The notes under the pieces are model-generated. The model ran no database searches. It was given only the letters and a program-made list of their open reading frames with translations, and had not been told where the DNA came from. A stretch of 64,000 nucleotides of DNA from Cristatella mucedo. Lineage: Eukaryota; Bryozoa; Phylactolaemata; Cristatellidae. The stretch covers positions 1-64,000 of the forward strand of contig WPIO01000175.1 of assembly GCA_009760855.2 (NCBI GenBank). The letters run 5' to 3'. The position numbers were made by a program, and so were the translations under genes. This document shows, piece by piece, positions 5,745-63,943 of the stretch; positions within the stretch are counted from its first letter, which is position 1; each line of letters opens with the position of its first letter.

Positions 5745-7361
5745 TGCTCGCCTAGGCTGAAACTTGGCAAAAATCGGTAAAATTAAAGACAATTAAAGAC
5801 CCTAATCCGAATGGTTTCAGCTTCTTTTGCATCAGTTAATCAATCAAAATTGAAGGCAGAGTTTCTATTATCTCGCACTCCAAATTCGACTTCAACCCAT
5901 TTGCAGTACCAAAAAAGCAGACGACTAAGTTTTCTTGATTTCAACTAACTACATGCTACCAGTGGAGGCAGTCTTCAACGGCAAACCGTGTAATAACTTC
6001 TCATTTATCTCAGATTTCTATCGAATTTCAATTCGTTGTGCAAGAAGTTGATCTTTCATTAGTAGTCATTCATTTTGATAACTTATAAGATACCTTCAAC
6101 ACAGAATTTAGTGTAGTGACTGACTCATTATCTGTTTCGGCTCATGTGCATGGCCATACTCACATCAAAGGTCACACACTCGACCCAATTTCCCTATGCA
6201 ATTGCCCTTGGTCATCGCCAAGTATTACTAAATAATGCTTTTCTGACCACATGAAGATATCATTCGATCTGCACTGTTTGCCTGCTCCTGCAATTTATCT
6301 ATAATAATCTGTGAATTGCGAAACCCAAAGACAATTTATATCAGTGCTGTCCGTGCGAGAATATCTTTTTATTCACTTGTGCTCAATCTTCGCTCCAATC
6401 TGTTATCACTTGTAGGTTGCCAAATAAGGCACTAGCCGTTATGCCCGACGATTTTGCACCACTGACGAAGCATTGTGCTCTTTCTCCCAGATGGCCTCTG
6501 GTTTACCATGGACGTTAAACTAGTTAGGTCAACTAAGTAAAAGCTTCAAAACGCATACAAAAGATCTGTGCTGTCCTTAGACTGACCTAGTGAACTACTG
6601 TAGATTGTAATAATCGATCCTAGTCAAGCCCAATTATAGCTTCTAAAAACGTTGTTGAATCACTGAAGTACAATGTGAAAATAATAATTTTGACGAGAAT
6701 CCATCTACTTTACTGCTCTCAGGTTAGCTCCTAACCTCGTGATTCGTGTGATGATCTAGCTGATGGCTTTAATAGCTTCTCCGTCGACAGAGATCAGGGA
6801 TCAGGAGTCAATTCCTTATATGTCAGCAAACCTCTGAAATCCCACCTCTCAATTCTATTTAGCTCCTCAATGCTGATATTCAAGGAGGTCACGGGTGACC
6901 TTGTCCAGATGTTCGTACCCCAATTAAAAAAGGCAACTAGTTCTTTGTACCATATTTCCACTATCATGCTTAAGCATGGTAGCTTTGATCTGCTGGTTCC
7001 ATGGATAACTAAAGTAGGAAATATTTCATTAGCCAGAGATCACGTCCCAGCACCTTTCACAAAGGCTGTAGTCGGGGCACTTCTCAAGAAAGTAAAAAAA
7101 AAGACAAAGAGAGCATGAGTAAATTCCGATCAGTCCCCTTCTTCTGCTTTCGTAGAAGACACTGATACTAGTCATGCCAGACCATATGAACTCATAAATT
7201 GAAAACTCAAAGCTTGCTAGTAAGTTTTGGTGTAGTTTTAGAGATAATTACTCCACAGAGTGGGCATTTTATATTTTTGTAACGTCCTTCTTAGGAATGC
7301 TGAATCTTGTAGAGTCTGGCTGAGCGTTCGCTTGATCATTTGTCTGCTTTTGATACTATCG
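5745..7361 (+). mobile_element. Old LINE-B copy, 5' part (endonuclease to RT)
   Basis: A diverged LINE-B copy. The endonuclease part is recognised from GCTCATGTGCATGGCCATAC (6139-6158) and the following ACATCAAAGGTCACACACT. The linker region follows, and the sequence breaks at the motif A region near 7361, exactly where a LINE-A copy is inserted. It resumes at 9523. No long open frame remains. Decay is greater than in most LINE-B copies here, so it is among the older ones. Confidence 0.8.
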
Positions 7362-9522
7362 TCGAAATTGCTTTCAATTTACAAAAAAACTCCTTAAGAC
7401 GCACTGTGTTAAGCACAGGCTGGAACGTCGTTTCAAGAAATCGGGGTCTGAGGCAGACCTAGTCAATTTTAAAGACTTCCTTCGAGTTTACACCCGAAAG
7501 CTTAAAAAAGCCAGGGCTTCTTTTTTCATTAGAAGACTGAATTCCTGCCAGTCGGACACTAAACAGATTTATAAGACAGTAAACCGTTTACTGGCCAATG
7601 CTGTGAGGTCTGACTCCCCAGATATTAAGGGCTCAGCCGAAACGTTTTCAGCCTTCTTTACTGAAAAAATTGTGCACATTCGTGCCTCCATTAAGCCCCC
7701 TCCGACCAAAGCAATCGCCGTTCCTCAACGTGTGACCTTTCTTGAAAGGTTCTCTGATGTTTCTGCCTGTGATATGGCTGCCTTAATAAGGTCTAGCAAA
7801 AAGAGCTCGTCTCCTGAAGACCCAATACCTTCATCTCTGTGGTCTTCACTTGCAGACCAACTTAGCCCTGCCATAACCAAGATTTTTAATGCTTCCTTGG
7901 GAAAAGGGGTCGTCCCCAAGTCCTTCAAATCGGCAATCATTAGACCTGTTCTTAAAAAGCCTGGATTAGACATAGAGGTCCTAGCAAACTATCGTCCAGT
8001 TTCCCTTCTTCCGTTCTTATCAAAGATTCTTGAAAAAATTGTTGCTAAGCAGCTAGTTGAACATATTGAAAATAATGGAATGTCAGAAGCATTTCAATAA
8101 GGTTTCAAGAGGCAGCACTCTACTGAAACTGCTCTCCTCCGTGTTAACAATGACATTCTACGTGGCAACGACGACGGGAATGTCACTGCCTTAGCTCTGC
8201 TAGATCTGTCTGCAGCCTTCGACACTATTGATCACGAAGTTCTGCTTGAACGATTGAGAACAACGATCGGTCTGGCAGACGAAGCACTGGCGTGGTTTAA
8301 ATCATACTTGTCTGATCGTGTTCAATCCGTGTCGTGTGGGGGTCAGGTCTCAGACATGAGAAGGCTCACCTGTGGAGTCCCTCAAGGGTCTGTACTTGGT
8401 CCCTTGCTGCTCTCTATTTATACGCAACCTCTGGGAAAAGTTATTAAGGCCTATGGAAAAGGATATCACTTCAATGCTGACGATACTCAGTTGTATTTGT
8501 CATTTAAACCGTCGGAATCTGTTGCAGCAACTGTGAAACTGAACGCTTGGCTTGCCGATTTTCGATCCTGGATGTCGGAAAACTTCCTGAAATTAAATGA
8601 CGATAAAACCGAACTGCTGCTCATAGGACACCCTAAGCGTGTGGCTGGGTTAAAAGGCTTTGCTGTTCTAATAGGTGATGCTATTGTGCGACCTTCACCA
8701 CGTGCTCGTAATCTAGATGTCGTGTTCGACAGCTGCCCCAATTTCGAAAGCTGCATTCAGAAGACTACCTCTACAGCTAGCCATCACATCCGATACCTAT
8801 CCAAGATTAGAAGCTGTCTCCCACAGTGGCTTGTAAAAAATTTAACTAGCTATTTAGTTCTGTCTCGGCTTGATTATTGTAATTCCCTTTTGGCTGGGCT
8901 ACCAAAGAAAGCTATTATGCCACTACAGCGGACTATGAATATGGCTGCAAGGCTGGTCTTCAAGTCCCAGCGGTTTGAGCACGTGTCACCTTTGCTGGAA
9001 GAGCTAGGATGGTTGCCGGTTGAGCAAAGGATACAGAGTAAAGTTCTTAGGCTGACCCACAAGGCCGGCCTCCGCTTGGCTCCTTCATACCTAGCTGAAC
9101 TGCTGCATCAGTTTTAGCCTGTTCGCGCCCTCAGGTCCTCTGTGGACAAAAAATTAGCCGTCTCATTCCTCCGCTTAAAGACAGTTGGCTACAAAAGCTT
9201 GAGCTCTGCAGGTCCTAGACTGTGGAACTCGCTTCCACAATTCTTACGCAACGACATCTACTCTCCAACTGCTGACTATGGCACATCTTTTTCAGCGGTC
9301 CTGAACTGCTACTTCTATGCTACTCACTACCTCAACTGCTCTCCTAACTCTGCTACGCTTCCCACTTTCTCTTTGTTTCGTGAGACGAAGTCTGTTGGCT
9401 ACCGAATGCATACCGAAAGCCGCTTAGGCTGTGAGTGAGCTATACAAAACTCCCCTGCGTAACACCCACATGGTCTTTTGACTTTTTGGAGTTACTGACG
9501 GAGATACATACATTAAATTACA
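7362..9522 (+). mobile_element. LINE-A copy with nearly open reverse transcriptase
   Basis: This is the best LINE-A copy. One frame runs from about 7363 to 9438, with TAA at 8098-8100 and TAG at 9115-9117 as the only stops noted. It covers the linker after the endonuclease, then the RT. RT motifs are RPVSLLP (about 7993), LLDLSAAFDTIDHE (motif A, about 8200), GVPQGSVLGPLL and FNADDTQLY (motif C, about 8475-8500; family members usually have Y or F before ADD). Near the end come YCNSLLAGLP, AARLVF and RLWNSLPQ, typical of the CR1/L2 group. The 3' end has ACATTAAATTACATTTCATT-like pentamers. The 5' end is truncated, without endonuclease. It sits inside the LINE-B copy 5745-10845, with ATCG on both sides as a likely short target duplication. 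Confidence 0.92.
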
Positions 9523-43454: not shown

Positions 43455-43650
43455 GAATCAAATGTAGGCAGACTTGACTGTCGACGGGATTTTAATGACT
43501 TTCGACAGGTGACCTTCTCAATCGTCAATAGAGCCCCATGCTTCATCATATAGGCTTGCAGTACCAATTTTGAGCATGACATTGTCTGATTTCTGAATCG
43601 ACCTAGGCTAGCCTGTGACTACTAAGTTGATTTTACAATCATCTAGTTGT
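43455..43650 (-). mobile_element. LINE-B fragment
   Basis: Minus-strand piece from the region before the RT C-terminus, with AGGCAGACTTGACTGTCGA and a decayed GCCCATAACTAGTAAGTTAG-like word. It provides the immediate left neighbourhood of LTR copy 3. Confidence 0.75.
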
Positions 43651-43671
43651 CATGTTCGCTATCATTAGTAT

Positions 43672-44974
43672 TGTCGGGCATTGCTGGCCTTGGCTGAATT
43701 CTAGCGAAATCAAGAGCTGTTCGGCGGCAGGCAAGAACTTCCTTTTTCCTGGAGCAGTGAGCCAGACAGGAGCATCAGTGTGGTTAGAGAGCAAGAGCTT
43801 AAGAGCAAGCCAGGAAGCTGTGAGACCATCGGTGGCGATTAAGCCTATAGAATTGGTCCGATACCCACGGGAGCTGCTGATTGATGTTGGATGGCCTGTC
43901 AACCCCCACCATCACTTTGTCCAAATAGAATCGTCTGGAACCCATTCGCCATTCAAGGTGAACAGAGGTGCCCTTCCAGTGGCCTAGTGGAGGTATTATT
44001 TCCTTGCCGTAAAGGGCCATGGTATCAGGCCAAATACCACAAAGTTCTTGCCCCATTGTCTCAGCTAAGTATTTAAGAGTCGAGCGACGACCGCTCTTGG
44101 TCTTTTGTTCGGCACCTAGCTTCGGCCTTGCTTCGATGCTGTCGGACTCGTTTCTCTGAAAGCGACGGTGGAGGGCCTGCTGCTAACCGGCGATGGACGT
44201 AACAGGATGAGGCATGGCTAGGAAGATTCGGTGGACTCCACCGAATACGGTCGTATCACGCCCGAGCTAGCATTTTTTTGTTTCTTTTGTGTTTTGTATG
44301 TGGGTGCTCGCACGTGGTCTCGGCATAAGGATTTGCAGGTACGAGCTAGATGTGGTTGGTGTTCATGAGGTATGCCTGCAGCAAGCTGGAAACGGAGTGC
44401 TAACGGAGTTCTCCGGTGAGGGTTTAGGCTCCGGTTCGGGCTCTGTGCATTTGGGTCATTTCCCATTATAGACGTAAGCAGCCTCAGTGTGGAGACGTGC
44501 TTCCTCCACAAGAGTGATTGAGGTTGCCTGTGTGAAGTATTCCTGCTGCACTGGTGAAAACGGGAGTCCTAGTTCTCCGGTTATGGTTTAGGCTCTGGTT
44601 CGGGCTCCGTCTATTTGGGTCGTTTCCCACTATAGACGTAAGTAGCTTCAGTCAGGAGAAATATTCCCTCTGCAAGAGTGTTGGTGCTTCTGAGAGCTTG
44701 TGAGGTGGAGATAAAACTAAGCTAGACGAGCAGCGACTTTGTGCCCTTGCGAATAAAGCTCAGTAAAATTCCTAGCTTGTGTCTAGCTTTCCAATTAACG
44801 CCTCGGACTCACGACCCTCTTCAGTAACAGTAAGTAGGTCAGAGCTAGTAATGCTCGTTTCCTTGCCGTCAGCTTTTTTTTAGCATAGGTTCGGGCCTAA
44901 CGGCATCCGGCGCAAGGTTACTCCACTATGTAAGCAGAAGGTCAAACCTGCCCTGCCGATCCTTCGGTGTTACA
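43672..44974 (+). mobile_element. Solo LTR, copy 3 (Gypsy-like)
   Basis: Starts TGTCGGGC, ends GTTACA, and is flanked by the perfect 4-bp duplication GTAT (43668-43671 and 44975-44978). Length is 1303 bases. A TATA-like TATTTAAG lies at 44070-44077 and a polyadenylation signal AATAAA at 44752-44757, which orders the parts as U3, R and U5. It has the same family and orientation as copy 2. No internal region adjoins. Confidence 0.87.
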
Positions 44975-52390: not shown

Positions 52391-54430
52391 ATGGTTAGGG
52401 GTGACATGCACAGGGTCAGCATGCAAATGTGGTTAGTGGCAGCATGCACAGTGTCAGCACGCATAAGCACATCAAGGACGAATCACAGGGACCCACTAAA
52501 TGCTGTCCTAAATAGGTGTGTTTTTAGGTTCCTTTTGAATGTGGTCAGGTCAGGGGATGTTCTGACGCAGGTCAGGAGGGAGTTCCAGGCTTTGGGAGCA
52601 TATGAACTGAATGCACGTCTCCAAAGGAATTAAGGTTTGCAAGAGGTATTCCTAGACTGTTGGATTCCGAAAAGCGGGTGGTACGATGCTTAGCCTGATG
52701 GGGTAGTATATCTGACAGATAGGCTGGAGCCATAGAATGAAGGGACCTAAAAGTGAGGGACAAAACCTTGAAGTCAATCCGTTGCCTTACTGGTAGCCAG
52801 TGCAGGTCGGCGAGAAGTGGAGTAATGTGGCAACTGCGATGCTCACGACAGACATGCCTAGCTGCCGAGTTTTGCCCCAGCTGCAATCGCCTGATCGCAC
52901 ATGCCGGTAGGCCAGTAAGCAGTGAGTTGCAGAAGTCGAGACGGGATGTCACGAATGCATAGACCAACTTAGATGTGGCATATTTATCTAAGCAAGCCCG
53001 AATTTTAGCGATGTTAGGAAGCTGAAAATAGGCGGATTTGACTGTGGAGCTGATATGGTCGTCTAGCGAGAGGTCGCTTTGGAATATGACACCTAGATTT
53101 CGAGCTGATTCAACTGGAGATATGCTGGCAGAGTCAATTTTGAGAGTCAGCCTTGCCAATCTCTGGATCACACTGGGTTTGCCCATAACTAGTAAGTTAG
53201 TTTTGTCATCGTTTAGTTTGAGAAAATTTCCTGTCATCCATGTGCGGATGTCATCAATGCATGCAGCAAGTGAGTTTAGAGAATTTGAGGTGCTCGAAGG
53301 CTGTAAGGGATCAAAGCAAAGGTACAAGTGAGTGTCATCTGCATAGAAGTGAAAGCCTAGATTGTGCTTGGCAATCACATCAGCAAGAGGCAGAGTATAA
53401 ACCGCGAAAAGAACCGGACCTAGCACAGAGCCCCGAGGTACTCCATATTTCAGAGGTACTTCAGATGATCTTTGTCCATTCACGTCAATACTCTGGAGTC
53501 TCCCACTGAGATAGGACCTGAACCACTGCAGAGCAGTGCCAGTGATGCCCAGGCGAGATGAGAGGCGCTCTAGAAGAACTTTGTGATCGATGGTATCAAA
53601 AGGTGCCGAAAGATCAAGCAAAACAGGCAGAGACACTCTACCCATGCCTGCATTCGTAAGTAGGTCGTTGTATACCCGAAGCAATGCTGACTCTGTGGAG
53701 TGATTAGCTCTAAAGCCGGACTGGAACTTACTAGCAAGGTGTGAGGTTTAGATATACGAGTTCAGCTGGTCCGCCACGACCCGTTCGAGTGTCTTTGATA
53801 GGAATGGTAGAAGGGAAACTGGGCGGTTGTTGCTCAAGTTCTCTTGGTCAAGTGTAGCTTTCTTGAGAAGTGGCCTGACTACAGCTTTTTAGAAAGGTGC
53901 TGGGACATGACCTGAGGCTAATGACATATTAAAGATGTTAGTTATGCATGGCAGCAGCAGATCAATGCAACGTAGGAGCAGGACAGTGGGAATAGGATCC
54001 AGAGGACTTGTTGTCTTCTTTGATTGAGATACGAACTTTAGGACTAGATCACTAGTGACCTGCTTAAATGCAGACATTGAGGTGTAGCCAGGAACCAAGG
54101 AACAGCATTCTAGTGGGAAGTTTGTCATCGCAGGGATGGATTCCCCGATCTTGTCTATATTCTGCACAAAGAATCGAGAGAAGCGATCGGCTAGATCATC
54201 ATTAGGATCATCAGGTAAGGAGCTAATCTGGGAACGGTTGAGGAGATGGTTTATTGTCGACATCAGCATTTTTGAATTGTGCATCTGTGATTCAACAATT
54301 TCTTAAAAAAAATAGACCGCCTTTGTTAGAATCGATTGGTACGACCTACAGAAGTCTTCATATGCATGTCGATGGACAGTATTCCGGAATCAACTGGGAA
54401 TGAGCAGTTAGTCCGGAATCAACCATATTT
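52391..54430 (-). mobile_element. LINE-B copy with the best-preserved RT
   Basis: The minus-strand open frame 52572-53684 spans 370 codons. Within it are motif A LLDLSAPFDTIDH (residues 22-34, catalytic Asp at 24), GVPRGSVLGPVLF (81-93) and motif C FYADDTHLYLCF (113-124). Also seen are LKLNDDKTNLLVMGKP, a thumb-like SDLSLDDHISSTVKSAYFQL, LDFCNSLLTGLPACAIRRLQ and LADLHWLPVRQRIDFKVLSL. An upstream piece (53889-54284) encodes the linker and fingers. The 3' hairpin and tail are missing at 52391. The protein would copy the element's RNA at a nicked target. The frame is closed upstream and the endonuclease is missing, so the copy is dead but relatively young. Confidence 0.93.
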
Positions 54431-56676: not shown

Positions 56677-57556
56677 AATAATAATAATAATAATTCACTT
56701 AATAAAGTGCCCTCAGAGAATCTAATCTCTCTCTAGGCGCTTTACATTTGCTGTAAAGTGAAATGCGATTGAATGGCAAGTTAAATCTGTCTTGAAAAAC
56801 AAACGAAACGAATAATATAGTTAGGGGTGACATGCACAGGGTCAGCATGCAAATGTGGTTAGTGGCAGCATGCACAGTGTCAGCACGCATAAGCACATCA
56901 AAGACGAATCACAGGGACCCACTAAATGCTGTCCTAAGTAGGTGTGTTTTTAAGTTTATTTTAAATGAGGTCAGGTCATGGGATGTTCTGATGCTGGTCG
57001 GGAGGGAGTTCCAGGCTTTAAGAACATATGAACTAAATGCGCGTTCTCCAAAGGATTTAAGGTTTGTATGAGGTATTTGTAGACTGTTGGATTCCAAAAA
57101 GCGGGTGGTACGATGCTTGGCCTGACGGGGCATATATCTGACAGATAGGCTAGAGCCATAGAATGAAGGGACCTAAATGTAAGCGACAAAACCTTGAAGT
57201 CAATCCGTTGCTTGACTGGTAGCCAGTGCAGGTCGGCGAGAAGTGGAGTAATGTGGCAACTGCGACGCTCACGACAGACAAGCCTAGCTGCAGAGTTTTG
57301 CACCAGCTGCAATCGCCTGATCGCACATGCTGGTAGGCCAGTAAGTAGTGAGTTGCAGAAGTCGAGACGGGATGTCACGAATGCATAGACCAACTTAGAT
57401 GTGGCATATTTATCTAAACAAGCCCGAATTTTAGCAATGTTATGAAGCTGAAAATAGGCAGATTTGACTGTGGAGCTGATGTGGTGGTCTGACGAGAGGT
57501 CGCTTTGGAATATGACATCTAGATTTCGAGCTGATTCGACAGGAGATATGCTGGCA
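56677..57556 (-). mobile_element. LINE-B 3' half, young copy
   Basis: Minus strand with an AATAATAATAATAATAATTC tail, hairpin at 56702-56745, and a largely open C-terminal RT (SPVESARNLDVIFQSDLSSD, then VYAFVTSRLDFCNSLLTGLP). It is truncated at 57556. It is the last large repeat before the defensin gene. Confidence 0.9.
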
Positions 57557-58314
57557 TAATTCCTTCGATCGTATAAGTATCCCCAGTCAATGTCAGCAGT
57601 AGAATGGCAAAGACAGACACCAATTCCTACGTTTCCAACGCATCGCAACTGAGCGAGGTGCCCTATAAGCGATTTAAAAAGTTTATATAACAAATTTCAT
57701 TACTTTACATCAACGGTAATTAGTCTGTACAAGCCATTTGCAAACACTGCTGAAAAGACAATTTGGCCAAACATAACTATTTGTGCTAGAAGTTATCTAG
57801 ACTAAAAATATTCAGAAGGGGTACTTGAATGATAGCAATTTTTGCATAAACCAGAGACGACACTTGTTTTTCGTGCAGGTCGTGGCAGTACAAGAGCTAT
57901 GAGTTGCAAGCACATCGGTGGTCTGAAAATAGCTAATACTCAGCTAGCGATCATGGGGTATTTTAAATTAGTTTTGTGAACCTCCCTTGATAGCAGTCGA
58001 TCATTTGCCCTACATTACAGTACCTACAGGGTAGCACATATCGCCATTCTGCTTGAATGGCACCGTCGGCAATGTGGCACTGATGTTACAAACCATTGCA
58101 GTGCAGAAGGTTTTTATGAGGGTTTTTATGAGGGTTTTTCGTTGTCACCGGATTAGATTCTAAGAAAGGTACTGGATGCACGCCACCATCGCTTTCTCTC
58201 TCCTTATCACTATTCTGAAAAAAGCTAGTAATCTAAATCTAGTGTTGGCGTTTTTTAGCACTCGTCATGCCAGCAACAAACCTTTTTACCTATGCATGAT
58301 TGGTGGCTAGCTAC
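57557..58314 (+). promoter_or_regulatory. Upstream region of the defensin-like gene
   Basis: Non-repeat sequence between the last LINE and the TATA box. Two and a half copies of GGTTTTTATGAG lie at 58109-58140, and an inverted CCAAT word (ATTGG) at 58299-58303 sits 12 bases before the TATA box. No clear NF-kB-type site (GGGRNNYYCC) was found by eye. Regulation cannot be inferred further. Confidence 0.4.
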
Positions 58315-58322
58315 TATATAAA
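58315..58322 (+). promoter_or_regulatory. TATA box
   Basis: TATATAAA, followed 33 bases later by an initiator-like TCAACT (58346-58351), with the ATG at 58366. This predicts a very short 5' leader of about 18 bases. Confidence 0.75.
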
Positions 58323-58365
58323 GGCACCGACAATCTTTAGGCTGATCAACTGAACAGCAGGCACA

Positions 58366-58492
58366 ATGGCGTGCATTCGCTACCTACTCTGTGCCGCTTT
58401 ACTGGGCTCGGCTATAGCTATTCCAATGGACGACGATGCGAAAACGGAAGCAGCCGAGATCGTTAATGGCGAACAGATAGAAAAACGACAAG
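58366..58492 (+). CDS. Exon 1: signal peptide and propeptide
   Basis: ATG at 58366 is the first after the TATA box. Residues 1-19 are a typical signal peptide, MACIRYLLCAALLGSAIAI, with a short basic start and a hydrophobic core. The propeptide (PMDDDAKTEAAEIVNGEQIE) is acidic and may neutralise or shield the peptide before release. It ends Lys-Arg at residues 40-41, a convertase site. The exon ends CAA G, followed by the donor GTAATA at 58493, leaving phase 1. If it is not spliced, the frame runs 23 codons further to a stop at 58561, with three more Cys, a read-through form judged unlikely. Confidence 0.88.
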
Positions 58493-61400
58493 GTAATAGT
58501 TGCGCGACAGCGACTTGCAAAGACGCAAATGCTAGGTCACTCTGCGACAAGCATATTACTTGAAAGAGCCAAAGTTCACATTTATAAACTGTCGTTTATC
58601 GATGGGTTAACGTTTACAATATCGAAATGTATATCGTCCTGTAGCCTTGGCGTGTAAGCAAAGTGCATAAGTTAAGTAGCAATTGCTGTTTCTTCTCCGT
58701 CACTTACTCTTGAAGGGTGGCAGCCATTTGTTGACGGCCCCTGCATTCGATGTTCCATTTCCTCAATTAAACTCTTGCATGCCAACGCTGTCTGTGAAGC
58801 ACTTAAAGCAAACGAATTTCCGGCCTGTGTGACTTCGCATAACAAGGTCGCATAAAATAATGCAAATTCTGCTCTTTAGTTCTGGTGTGGAACGTCTCCC
58901 GGCGTATCTACACTCGTGGTGAAGATAATAAGTTTTTTTCACACATTTAAAATTTATTTAAACAGTGTAATCCTCACGGATAAATGATAATATTTTAGTT
59001 GCTATCCGATACTCTTTTGAGCTCAAAGAGATTTATTTTTTATTATCGCAGTTTGTTTCAGGTTTTTTAACTGGATGAAGCTTGTGTGTGTGCAGGCTTT
59101 ATTATTTCTAAATGCATTCGTCACAGGCCAGCCATTTCAACCAACGGAAATATTCTTCATAACCTTACAACTTTTTTATAGATTGCATCAAGTATTCAGT
59201 AGATTTTCTACCGTACTACTTGTGAATTTGCAACAATGGACCGCACTTTAATGTTGGTGCTGCAGATTTTCGCGTTCCGTTATTTGGAATAATATGGTGA
59301 AAGCATACAAACGTGATACAAAGAGCATATTTGTACAGTAATTTATATTGTGATAATATTCATTTGAAATATCAAAAGGTTTCTAACTGCAAGGTATTTT
59401 AGCGGATTTTAAGTATTTCTCAGCTGAATAAGTAGTATAAAGTATTCAATATTTGGTTGTCACTGCTGAATGAATATCTCGGAAATAATCACCTAAAGTA
59501 GTAACCACTGATTGGGCGATCGACACCATTCAATTCCGTCCTCATGGGACTATTCGGACTTTGCAAAGACAAATTAGTACTTTGCTAATGGAGATGCAAT
59601 AATTCTGGCAGAAAATTCATATGATTGCCATTGAAAGTGTGCTGATTTATGTTGTTTTTAAACATTTCTCTGCTGTACCTGCACAGGCCACGTGATTTCT
59701 AGTAAAGGGGCTTCTTCGTCATACCGGGATTAACTTCTATAGAGGCTTCTAGGGGTATGATGTTATAATTCTTACCTTTTTTTAAATTCTGACCGATGCT
59801 AATGTATGAAAGTTTTGATTTTTCGAGTTTTTCCCATTAGCAGTCTTTCCGTCCTATGCGTATGCACGTCTAGATGAAATTCAGCAAAAGGTTACTGTTT
59901 TATATTCGACCCGTGATAAAGCAGTTCACGTCGACAAGGAGTCCAGGTCAATGATACGTATTACCAAGGTGATGGGCTCGGGAACGCGGCATATGTAAAG
60001 CGCCTGAGTTATTCTGTTATCTTAAGCCGTCAGAGTAATAATTTATGTATTATTCTCGCGGGTAAAAATTAAAGGAACCTCACGTTGCGACTGCCGACGA
60101 GTATCAGGTCACGATTGCGTACGTGGTGTGTGGTGCTCCCTTTCGAAGTCCGAGGTCGTGGTATCGATTACTACAGCGGACGATTCTTTTTTGCTAACAC
60201 AGCAGGCGGAGGAGACAGGTCGCTAAACGCTCCTCTGCATCCATACAAATGTTGCTGTCATCATCATCATCGCAGCTAATACTTCTTTTTGAACAACTAT
60301 TCGCACGGCAAAACCCTCAGTACCGTGGCGTTTAAGATGCTTAGTATTTATAATTCCACGTGAATCACAACAAACTAGATTGACTAACTGTGGCATCGTC
60401 AACTGTCACGCAAACGTTTCGCCTCGGTGGCGATTTTGTATACGGACTTAAGTGACTGAAATTTGCTCTCCTTTATTCACAAAGACGGGCAGCCAAATGT
60501 AAGGCGGAAAGGCTAATGCTTTAGTTACAAGCGCAAATTTCGGAAAGCATATAGTTGTGAATGAAAATGCGAAGGCTTACTTTTGTTACCACCTGATATT
60601 CATTTAAGGTACATATTAAGTCATATATAACTATTCTTTCAGAAGAGGAGCTAAGAATTTAAACCGCAAAGTAATCGATTGTGTAGACCTCGCGAAGTCC
60701 CGTTTATCCAACATATCTCGCAAGGTTAGGCTCGGACAGAGGTTGCAGTATTTTAAGTATTCACCAAAAGCAAGAATTTTGGTTTTCATTATTATTATTA
60801 TCAGTGATAATAATAAACTTGATAACGCCCCTCAGAGCACTCGATCTCTTTCTAGGCACTTTTCATTTGTTGCCAAGGAAACAGTTACCGATAAGTCCTG
60901 TAAGAGGAAAACGATTAAACATTGTTATGATAATAGGGTTTATGCTGAATGTTATGGAAATATCTCACTTCTATTGAACAAGCCTCGAATTCATCGTCGG
61001 GTGTTTTGGCATATAATTGATAAGGCTCAGCGTCAAATTTCTCTAAAAAATAAAAACAGACGAATAGGCTCTGGCTCACTTTTTTGCTAGCTTGGCGAAA
61101 ACATTCAGAAATATGCCACACTTAATTTGCTAGGGAGCTGTATTTTCGAGCATCACAAATGAAAAATATTACTGCAACCTAGTGAACTTCTACGAGATTG
61201 TTCATCATAAGCCTCAAAAATATGTGCTCTGTTATTCACTGGGTCACTAGATCACTGCACGTCGAAAAATGGAGAATGCAATTGGTATAAAGCTGGATGC
61301 TGGCAACCTGAGGAGATTGATCCAACCTTGTGGTGCCCAGCCGAATTCATTTGCTGCAGGACAAGTAAGTTTTTCTTTACGTATTTTTGAAGGCATAACC

Positions 61401-63943
61401 AAACCCACTAAATCCTAGTGCTAAATGGCGGCTTGTTTATCTTTTTCTTCATTTTTTGAAGCTATTTATTAATTTGCATTTTGTTGTGGGTTTATAAGTT
61501 GATGGCAGATCGGTCGTTTACTGGCTTTGTTACGAACGAATGCTCCAAAACCTTATATATTCCGGCTAAGTTACGATCATATAAAGAAATCTGGCGAATG
61601 GATTTTAATTATGGAAGCCATATTAAGTATTCAGAAATCTCTTTTAATCCTTAGGTTTTGGCTTTTGACCTAACTGCATTCTCAAAAGACATTGATTTTA
61701 CCTTTAGAGCGTTTCAAAGTTTACAGCGGGATCAAATGAAGAAGAAGTAGAGAATAACATACCTAGAAATTCTTCTTCAATTTTAATATGCATTTTTTTA
61801 AATTAAAAAATAATTATAGCAAGTTAAGAATATCAGCTTTGGAGGACTTAAGTAAGATTGCTCAGCAGAGTCGATAGAATGAGGCATTTAACTTGTTCTG
61901 CCAGAGCGGAATGAGGGTACATAGCTTTTTGAAAAACGAGCTTTTTGAAGAACGAGTGCCAGAACAGATTAGTCACATAGTGACACAGTTTCCGTAAGCT
62001 TTACCATGACCACTAACCTTCGCTGGATGTTTCATGAACTGGTAGTGCCTAACTGCATGATAACAGAGCTTTCCTTTTGGCAAACTAGGGCAGCACGTTG
62101 TGTGATTATCTTCACTTTCAAGCGTAATAATAATGACAATAATAAAACATTTGACAAATCACCCTCAGCGAACTGAATCTCTTTCTAGACGCTTTATATT
62201 AGCAGCAAAGGAAGCGCGATCTAATAGTCACCGTTAGAATTCTCCCTAAAAAATAACAACATAATGGCTACAGCCACACGCCCACGGTCAGCAAGCAAGT
62301 ATGGTGAGTGGTAGCTTGCAAAAGTGTGGGGGCGCATAAGCACATAAAGGATGAATCGCAGGGACTCAGGAAATGCTGAAATAAATAGGTGTATTTCAAT
62401 TTTCTCTAAAAATGTAGTCAAATCAGGAGTTGTCGTGAGCATTTTGGGATTGCGTTAAAGGCTTTGGGAGCATACGAACTAAAGGCACGGTCTCCAAAGC
62501 AGTTGAGGTTTATACGAGGTATAGTTAAACAATTCTATTGTAAAAAGTGGGTGGCGCAATGCTTAGCCTAATGGGGGAGTTGATCTGATAGGTTTATTTT
62601 TGGTTGAGTCAAATGATGAATTTATTTAAGAAGGAGTAACAAAACCTTGAGGTCAATGCATTGCTTGACTGGGAGCCAGAGCATGTCGGCGAGAAGCAGT
62701 GCGATGTGGCTACTTGTATCAATCGGAAGCTAAAGTTGTGCAGATTAAGCTACTTTTGTGTTAATACAATTTTGCAATAAACTGCAACCGTTTTCCAAGC
62801 AATTAAAACAATGACAAAACAGCAACATATCATTTGTTTAGTCGAAATTGCTCATTAGCTTTTCACCATTAATGTAGCATTAAATAAGAAATTCACTACT
62901 CCCGAATCACACCACTTCTTGCTGACCTTCACTGGCTAAGAGGCAAGCAAAGGATCGATTTCAAAGTATTTTCGCTCACTTTTTGGTCACTTCATTCTTT
63001 GGCTCCAACCTATCTCTCAGATCTACTCCCCCACCAGACCAAGCATCGTACCACCTACTTTTCAGAATGTAACAGTTTACCAATACCCGGTACAAAACTC
63101 AATTCCTCTGGAGACCGTGCAATCAGTTCGTATGCTCTCAAAGCCTGGAACTCCCTCCCGACTTGCTTCAGAATACCTCCTTGCGTGATCCAATTTAAAA
63201 AGAACTTAAAAACACACCTATTTAGAACAGTATTTAGTGGGTTCCCGTGATTTTTCCTTTATGTGGTTAGTCGTGCTGACACTGTGTATGCTGCCGGTAA
63301 ACGTACTTGCACGCTGACCAGGTGCAAGTAAACCCTAACTATGTAATTCATTTTGTTTACCAAGCAAGATACGACCAGGCATGATACTCACCATTCAACC
63401 GTATTTACTTTGTATCAAATGTCAAACGAGTAGAAAAAGATTGAGATCTAAGTGGCTTCATCAAGTGCATTGTCTTTATTGTTAGAAGCAAACAAGTATT
63501 GTTTATTGCCGTGACATTGTTTTCGTGAATTCTCGTATGCGGTTGTAGAAAACGTTAGTGTTGCTGAATTATTTAAAAGTAATCTCGAGATGCCGTCATA
63601 TAAGCAGTATTAGGAATTTTTCTGTTGAGTAAGCTTTCGGAAATACTGTAGGTCCTTGTGTTGCACTAGCACGTTTTATAGGCTAACCATTTATACTTGC
63701 ACAGAGATCGCACAGTATTAAAAATAATTGCTTTCGTATTTCTAACTGTGCATACGACGTTTTACCTCGATGGCCATTGTGTGGTTGCTCTTAACCTACC
63801 GAATGTTGAATTCTTTAAATTTCACAGAGACCCAATGCGAGAGACAAGGTGGAGATTGCATATGGACGGGTCGTCAGTGCGACTATCCAAAAGCGTGGAA
63901 TAGCGGCTACGCGTGCAACGGCTTTTTGCGGTGCTGCATTTGA
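58366..63943 (+). CDS. Defensin-like secreted peptide gene, split, with cassette exon
   Basis: Three exons are supported: 58366-58492, 61251-61364 (cassette) and 63828-63943. Exon 1 plus the last exon gives 80 residues; with the cassette, 118 residues. Order: signal peptide (residues 1 to about 19), acidic propeptide, Lys40-Arg41 processing site, then one or two six-cysteine domains. Both domains fit C-x4-G-[DE]-C-x-W-x4-C-x2-P-x8-C-x5-C-C, close to the beta-defensin pattern with its G-x-C and terminal Cys-Cys, but with six rather than three to five residues between the second and third Cys. Defensins of this fold are secreted peptides, mostly antimicrobial; here the role is inferred. The predicted mature one-domain peptide is about 39 residues, begins with Gln and has four acidic and four basic residues, so it is not cationic. 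All splice sites are GT/AG and phase 1. The gene lies alone at the end of a LINE-rich tract. Confidence 0.85.
58719..58960. repeat. Intron segment similar to the 24-38 kb duplicated units
   Basis: GGTGGCAGCCATTTGTTGAC (58714-58738 region) matches 27353-27372 with a single difference, and CATTCGAT follows at the same distance in both. Weaker likeness continues past AAGGTCGCATAAAATAATGC. Unit 2 has a more diverged version near 36003. It is either an old shared repeat or a sign that these loci are related by duplication. Confidence 0.55.
58961..60784. other. Intron 1, part without recognised feature
   Basis: No repeat family was recognised. Two frames behind AG sites were considered as further exons and not accepted: 59841-59997, without cysteines, and 60085-60279, cysteine-containing but with the wrong spacing. 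Confidence 0.5.
60785..60885 (-). mobile_element. LINE-B 3' tail inside intron 1
   Basis: Minus-strand tail (ATTATTATTATTATCAGTGA) and hairpin (GCCCCTCAGAG and CTCTTTCTAGGC), with nothing upstream. It lies about 370 bases before the cassette exon. Confidence 0.82.
61251..61364 (+). CDS. Cassette exon: first six-cysteine domain
   Basis: The acceptor is TCACTAG before 61251. The first two bases join the G of exon 1 to make Asp, then His and the first Cys. Cysteines follow as C-x6-C-x6-C-x11-C-x5-C-C, spacing identical to the last exon, with Gly-Glu before Cys2 and Trp two residues after it. The donor is GTAAGT at 61365, a strong match to consensus. At 114 bases (38 codons) and phase 1 at both ends, skipping or including it keeps the frame. 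Joined to the last exon it gives Cys-Cys-Arg-Thr-Lys-Thr-Gln-Cys between domains. The domain is acidic (six acidic, three basic residues). The polypyrimidine tract is weak (TGCTCTGTTATTCACT), which would suit regulated inclusion. The intact frame, conserved spacing and both splice sites make a decayed exon unlikely. Confidence 0.8.
61371..62125. other. Intron 2 (cassette to last exon), part without recognised feature
   Basis: AT-rich, with no repeat or exon recognised. The words GAAAAACGAGCTTTTTGAAG and its neighbour at 61930-61955 form a short tandem duplication. Confidence 0.5.
62130..62720 (-). mobile_element. LINE-B 3' part inside the intron
   Basis: Decayed minus-strand copy: AATAATAATGACAATAATAA tail, hairpin at about 62160-62200, and the C-terminal region to about 62720. 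Confidence 0.82.
62880..63475 (+). mobile_element. LINE-B 3' part inside the intron
   Basis: Plus-strand copy with an open stretch (62999-63250: MAPTYLSDLLPHQTKHRTTY, then ALKAWNSLPTCFR), the 3' UTR and a decayed hairpin near 63440. It faces the copy at 62130-62720. Confidence 0.85.
63828..63943 (+). CDS. Last exon: second six-cysteine domain and stop
   Basis: The acceptor TTCTTTAAATTTCACAG ends at 63827. The first two bases complete Glu (after exon 1) or Lys (after the cassette). Then Thr-Gln-Cys opens a domain with Cys at 46, 53, 60, 72, 78 and 79 of the 80-residue form: C-x6-C-x6-C-x11-C-x5-C-C. Gly-Gly-Asp precedes Cys2, Trp follows at plus two, and Pro is third in the x11 loop. The peptide ends Cys-Cys-Ile with TGA at 63941-63943. 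No AATAAA lies in the last 57 bases of the window, so the 3' UTR continues beyond it. Expected pairing, if it is a true beta-defensin, is 1-5, 2-4 and 3-6; this is inferred. Confidence 0.88.

Follow-up and report, generated by a model that had tools for sequence, protein, structure and literature searches.

Tandem beta-defensin-like domains are a known kind of protein of scattered occurrence, to which the gene analysed here most likely adds a member. In passages of PMC9138766 AvBD11 is described as a double protein, an avian double-beta-defensin with one exon per domain, and the monodomain AvBDs are given the spacing Cx4-7Cx3-4Cx9-10Cx5-6CC. According to parts of PMC6339383 no structure with a pair of beta-defensin repeats had been described as of 2019 apart from that of the tick carboxypeptidase inhibitor; the repeats paired in rusticalin follow Cx6Cx6-7Cx8Cx7CC. 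Sections of two further papers provide background on sea urchin peptides (PMC4805251) and cysteine-rich repeats (PMC7379824). A phase-1 intron just 5′ of the cysteine-rich region is a feature of beta-defensins and trans-defensins (PMC7203481).

The locus compared with these systems is a small plus-strand gene near the right end of the 64-kb window, the term used here for the whole stretch of DNA that was analysed. Its layout is as follows:

58315..58321, plus strand: TATA-box-like sequence found by pattern scan, one of three matches in 57300-61251, about 50 bases 5′ of the start codon
58366..58492, plus strand: coding part of exon 1 from translation, 127 nt, beginning with the ATG at 58366 and ending in phase 1
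61251..61364, plus strand: candidate exon 2, 114 nt, first six-cysteine domain (Cx6Cx6Cx11Cx5CC), phase 1-1
63828..63943, plus strand: coding part of exon 3 with the stop codon, second six-cysteine domain (Cx6Cx6Cx11Cx5CC), TGA at 63941-63943

Xiao et al. reportedly described a double-beta-defensin from a marine invertebrate in 2023; judged by the title alone, this invertebrate protein would have two beta-defensin domains, like the product proposed here. The gene resembles AvBD11, as presented in the passages of PMC9138766, in its two six-cysteine domains on separate exons, their low sequence similarity to each other and the predicted secretion of the product. It differs in spacing, which is Cx6Cx5Cx9Cx6CC and Cx6Cx6Cx7Cx6CC with a linker of nine residues in AvBD11, whereas here both domains follow a single pattern and the linker has five. 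The tick carboxypeptidase inhibitor and rusticalin, as covered in parts of PMC6339383, also carry tandem beta-defensin-like repeats and are not necessarily antimicrobial; rusticalin has a peptidase domain, unlike the product here. The lobster beta-defensin-like peptide panusin, as presented in sections of PMC10301333, shares with the domains described here six cysteines, a CC end and a glycine two residues before Cys2 in a peptide of 39 residues. It differs in its spacing (Cx6Cx4Cx9Cx5CC), its single domain and its net charge of +4 (Table 2 of that paper).

Exon anatomy and reading frame

The earlier note had delimited exon 2 as a 114-base segment with an AG acceptor, a GTAAGT donor and phase 1 at both ends, all of which, like its open frame, is read directly from the DNA. 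With junctions marked by a slash, the exon 1 donor reads AAG/GTAATA, exon 2 is bordered by ...TCACTAG/AT at its acceptor and ACAA/GTAAGT at its donor, and the exon 3 acceptor reads ...TTTCACAG/AGACC.... With these predicted sites both introns of the gene are in phase 1, and a phase-1 intron lies right before each cysteine-rich region, at 58492/61251 and at 61364/63828. Translation showed that the frame is kept whether exons 1 and 3 or exons 1, 2 and 3 are joined, giving a precursor of 118 residues with exon 2 and of 80 residues without it. Judged by eye, the product of exon 1 consists of a hydrophobic leader and an acidic propeptide (net charge −4) that runs into EKR followed by Q. In GC content, exon 2 (0.474) comes closer to exons 1 and 3 (0.504 and 0.534) than to the introns (0.388 and 0.382). 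A strict NF-kB-like site (GGGRNNYYCC) was absent from 57300-58366 and from either intron.

The frame of exon 3 is open in the 5′ direction to 63746, and within 63746-63943 an ATG lies in frame at 63770, with hydrophobic residues following it; it is conceivable that a leader for domain 2 begins at this ATG without splicing.

The six cysteines of exon 2 are spaced exactly as in exon 3. Both domains further have a glycine two residues before Cys2, a tryptophan two after Cys2, a proline three after Cys3 and an acidic residue (E or D) directly before Cys2. On each of these points the DNA agrees with what the earlier note had claimed.

Chance, selection and descent of the two domains

With base frequencies modelled to first order on the introns, the 5.2 kb of intron should contain the exact motif 1.9e-6 times, and the two strands of 64 kb 4.7e-5 times. 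Random first-order sequence of 20 Mb, scanned on one strand in three frames, yielded no exact motif and 11 looser ones. Motifs of the loose class occur twice in the six frames of the window, both times in the defensin-like gene (exons 2 and 3). The exact motif is thus far rarer by chance than seen, and its presence in exon 2 is no accident.

Drift was simulated over 102 sites with substitutions only, from a start sequence assumed to be exon-3-like, in 20,000 runs for each number of substitutions. The six cysteines and an open frame survived in 13% of runs at 10 substitutions, in 2% at 20, in one of 20,000 at 60 and in none of 20,000 at either 80 or 100, figures that are compatible with an exon that was long functional and died recently. 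Mean DNA identity fell to 52% and 46% at 80 and 100 substitutions; the observed value for exons 2 and 3 is 46%. Most likely, 61251-61364 is a real, long-selected exon whose limits had been rightly drawn, and judging by its sequence it is probably still functional.

The two domains are identical at 9 of 34 positions, namely the six cysteines and the G, W and P, and the DNA of exons 2 and 3 agrees at 47 of 102 positions. With the cysteines held fixed, 5.1% of 100,000 shuffles reached the BLOSUM62 score and 22% reached three identities. That phase and spacing are equal suggests that the two exons share an ancestor. Phase and spacing make exon duplication, which had been offered as the origin of exon 2, plausible, but the match outside the cysteines is barely above that of shuffled sequence and a recent event is excluded. 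Given this borderline similarity and the low DNA identity, any duplication within the gene is old. Fusion of two older domains is a possible alternative origin. For AvBD11 the view taken in passages of PMC9138766 is that different ancestors fused or that the double gene is ancient, as opposed to a recent internal duplication. A transposable-element origin of exon 2 was considered and rejected, as the window holds no second copy of it; 61365-62130 too lacks a second copy in the window.

Splice signals, repeats and the probable inclusion of exon 2

Splice sites were scored with generic matrices, whose training was not on this species. On this scale the exon 2 acceptor at 61251 is poor (score 0.47, equalled or bettered by 27% of the 4,478 AGs in the window), its donor falls among the best 0.3% of the 3,680 GTs in the window, and the exon 3 acceptor is good, among the best 1.8% of AGs. 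The AG before 61134, which lies 117 bases upstream of the exon 2 acceptor, scores higher (4.1 versus 0.47); an exon starting at 61134 would meet an in-frame stop just before 61211, because the open frame begins at 61211. A branch-point-like YNYTRAY sequence was absent from the 60 bases before exon 2 (61191-61250), and a simple scan of intron 1 found no alternative first exon with an ATG, a hydrophobic start and a phase-1 donor.

The main hint in the sequence that exon 2 might be skipped is its combination of a weak acceptor with a very strong donor. If exon 2 were a regulated cassette, one gene could make either a 39-residue one-domain peptide or a 77-residue two-domain protein, perhaps depending on tissue or challenge. 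We treat this reading as tentative. It agrees with the symmetric phase of exon 2, with both forms being in frame and with their common leader and KR/Q site. For a crocodile gene two transcripts have been predicted, and one may encode a double defensin, according to passages of PMC9138766. Of the one-domain/two-domain switch proposed in the earlier note, the in-frame symmetric exon and the common leader exon are supported; phase 1-1 would let skipping pass without proving it, and symmetry is to be expected whenever a domain exon of phase 1 is duplicated.

The weak acceptor, next to the good acceptor of exon 3, would also be expected of a once functional exon 2 that is now silent and decaying, skipped through its weakened acceptor so that a one-domain gene is left. 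We consider this improbable, as the frame, the six cysteines and the near-perfect donor are all intact and the simulation indicates that free drift ruins the motif fast. Still less credible, and in our judgement very improbable, is that exon 2 serves as an alternative last exon, read through to the stop at 61388 to give its own one-domain peptide while exon 3 gives another. Its frame is indeed open to 61387 and intron 2 contains seven hexamers of the AATAAA or ATTAAA type, the first at 61802. This arrangement would leave the GTAAGT donor at the end of the domain idle, and the nearest such hexamer is 438 bases off.

Repeats on either side of exon 2 bear on the cassette reading as well:

60780..60885, plus strand: LINE-tail repeat fragment in intron 1, with copies elsewhere in the window, partly complementary to 63381-63490
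62125-62714 and 62906-63484, in opposite orientation: two inverted LINE 3′ pieces in intron 2

A duplex of 60780-60885 with 63381-63490, which would span exon 2, was calculated at −50.3 kcal/mol; 300 mononucleotide shuffles averaged −27.8 and went no lower than −42.2. When 51 windows of intron 1 were paired with 63381-63490, the best value was obtained at the 60780-60885 site (−49.2, the next being −39.0). Against a role in skipping, pairing within intron 2 reaches similar (−46.8) or much greater (−165.8) stability, the best inverted match between the introns reaches only E 0.84 in blastn, and the repeat pair was chosen after looking. With competitors of equal or greater strength, looping-out of exon 2 by the repeats stays no more than an idea. 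The LINE arms of intron 2, 62438-62591 and 63014-63167, are 76% complementary and could fold into a strong RNA hairpin 5′ of exon 3.

The introns of the window and its many LINE fragments suggest animal genomic DNA, and LINE reverse transcriptase open reading frames lie at 52572-53747 on the minus strand and 7354-9117 on the plus strand. The former had 4,928 matches at E ≤1e-20 among 8,000 scored candidates. Among the 120 matches listed, identity was 40-52% except for JGI protein P0114 (92% over 49% of the query), which perhaps stems from the same species as the window or a near relation, and those with names were mainly from fish. Two further open reading frames, 1688-2059 on the minus strand and 43631-43987 on the plus strand, contain a similar translated stretch, LESKSLRASQEA..., and are probably copies of one repeat; 1688-2059 had no Pfam match.

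Since the literature presents both AvBD11 and the tick carboxypeptidase inhibitor as double proteins, we place normal inclusion of exon 2 first and a regulated cassette second. A single-leader gene that toggles by skipping, with products of charge 0 or −1, E or K as the junction residue and perhaps a bias from the repeats, appears doubtful to us. Alternative splicing of exon 2, which would add the one-domain form, is a testable guess. The gene probably makes a double-domain protein, and the simplest reading is a secreted one of beta-defensin-like type.

Family membership and proposed product

A search of the 118-residue product against 5.8 billion proteins returned one candidate and zero hits, and Pfam and the PDB held no significant match to the gene product. 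Three stretches in a pattern scan of viral contigs, a set from which records of the window's own genome may be missing, fit, and none of them encodes a relative. None of the four sequences scanned matched a Pfam defensin model at E up to 10, a limit at which the HMMER filters drop most matches above about 0.1. One of the four matched PF10468 (tick carboxypeptidase inhibitor, I68) at 8.3 bits and E 4.2, below the curated cut-off of 25. The match places residues 74-118 on positions 41-85 of the 87 in the model and touches the second domain. Being so far under the cut-off, it leads us to claim no membership of PF10468. With exon 2 included, the cysteine pattern of the product would fit two tandem beta-defensin-like repeats, the I68 trait.

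The best weak matches of exon 3 are of toxin type and not defensins: the Ptu family (E 0.24 in Pfam, 0.057 in the PDB) and a conotoxin (E 0.57). The Ptu matches raise the alternative of a pair of six-cysteine knottins (inhibitor cystine knots) instead of beta-defensin-like domains, which we rate as improbable. The Ptu-1 match doubles the third cysteine, whereas the adjacent pair here is Cys5-Cys6 and a glycine stands two residues before Cys2. The adjacent Cys3-Cys4 of a Ptu-type knottin (PF08117) is absent here, and the E values are only 0.24 and 0.057. Both domains have the beta-defensin or trans-defensin arrangement of six cysteines, the last two of them adjacent, with glycine two residues before Cys2, and this glycine is a beta-defensin motif. 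The Cys2-Cys3 spacing of 3-4 seen in monodomain AvBDs was not found, the value here being 6; AvBD11 itself has 5 and 6.

The charge speaks against taking the label 'defensin' of the earlier note in the antimicrobial sense. Net charge is −3 for domain 1, 0 for domain 2 and −1 for both together, so that neither domain has the cationic character of most, though not all, mature defensin peptides, and antimicrobial action is not to be assumed. With respect to disulfides 1-5, 2-4 and 3-6 and a three-stranded sheet, the model of the exon 2 domain was poor (mean pLDDT 50.1, pTM 0.20) and is uninformative about the fold.

We consider it reasonably likely that 61251-61364 is a true coding exon and that the gene, with three exons, specifies a secreted beta-defensin-like protein of two domains, a reading in which exon anatomy, frame, cysteine pattern and charge are observed and splicing, cleavage, disulfides, fold and function are inferred. 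Exon 1 would provide the signal peptide and the acidic propeptide with its KR end, and exon 2 would be included as the likeliest default. A cut after KR would free a 77-residue protein beginning with Q, in which two compact three-disulfide domains would be joined by the five-residue linker RTKTQ. For the peptides in reduced form and without modification, average masses of 8878.9 Da (two domains) and 4462.0 Da (one domain) were calculated; each disulfide would lower these by about 2 Da and a pyroglutamate by 17. The tandem pair may work jointly in binding or inhibition, like the tick carboxypeptidase inhibitor, and not as a cationic membrane-killing peptide; for a non-cationic beta-defensin-like scaffold, binding or inhibition fits at least as well as membrane killing. 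The tick carboxypeptidase inhibitor acts via a longer C-terminal tail, unlike which the chain here stops one residue past its last cysteine.

When open-licence PubMed Central was searched for defensins in connection with alternative splicing, duplication, exon skipping or cassette exons, the AvBD11 paper was, going by titles, the only one about defensin domains; such a switch may nonetheless have been reported. Why 'polydefensins' arose is treated as an unanswered question in passages of that paper (PMC9138766). If the gene is simply a double-domain gene, it would be one more member of a scattered family. Two phase-1 domain exons of the same spacing would mean that the double form may be gained or lost through splicing alone.
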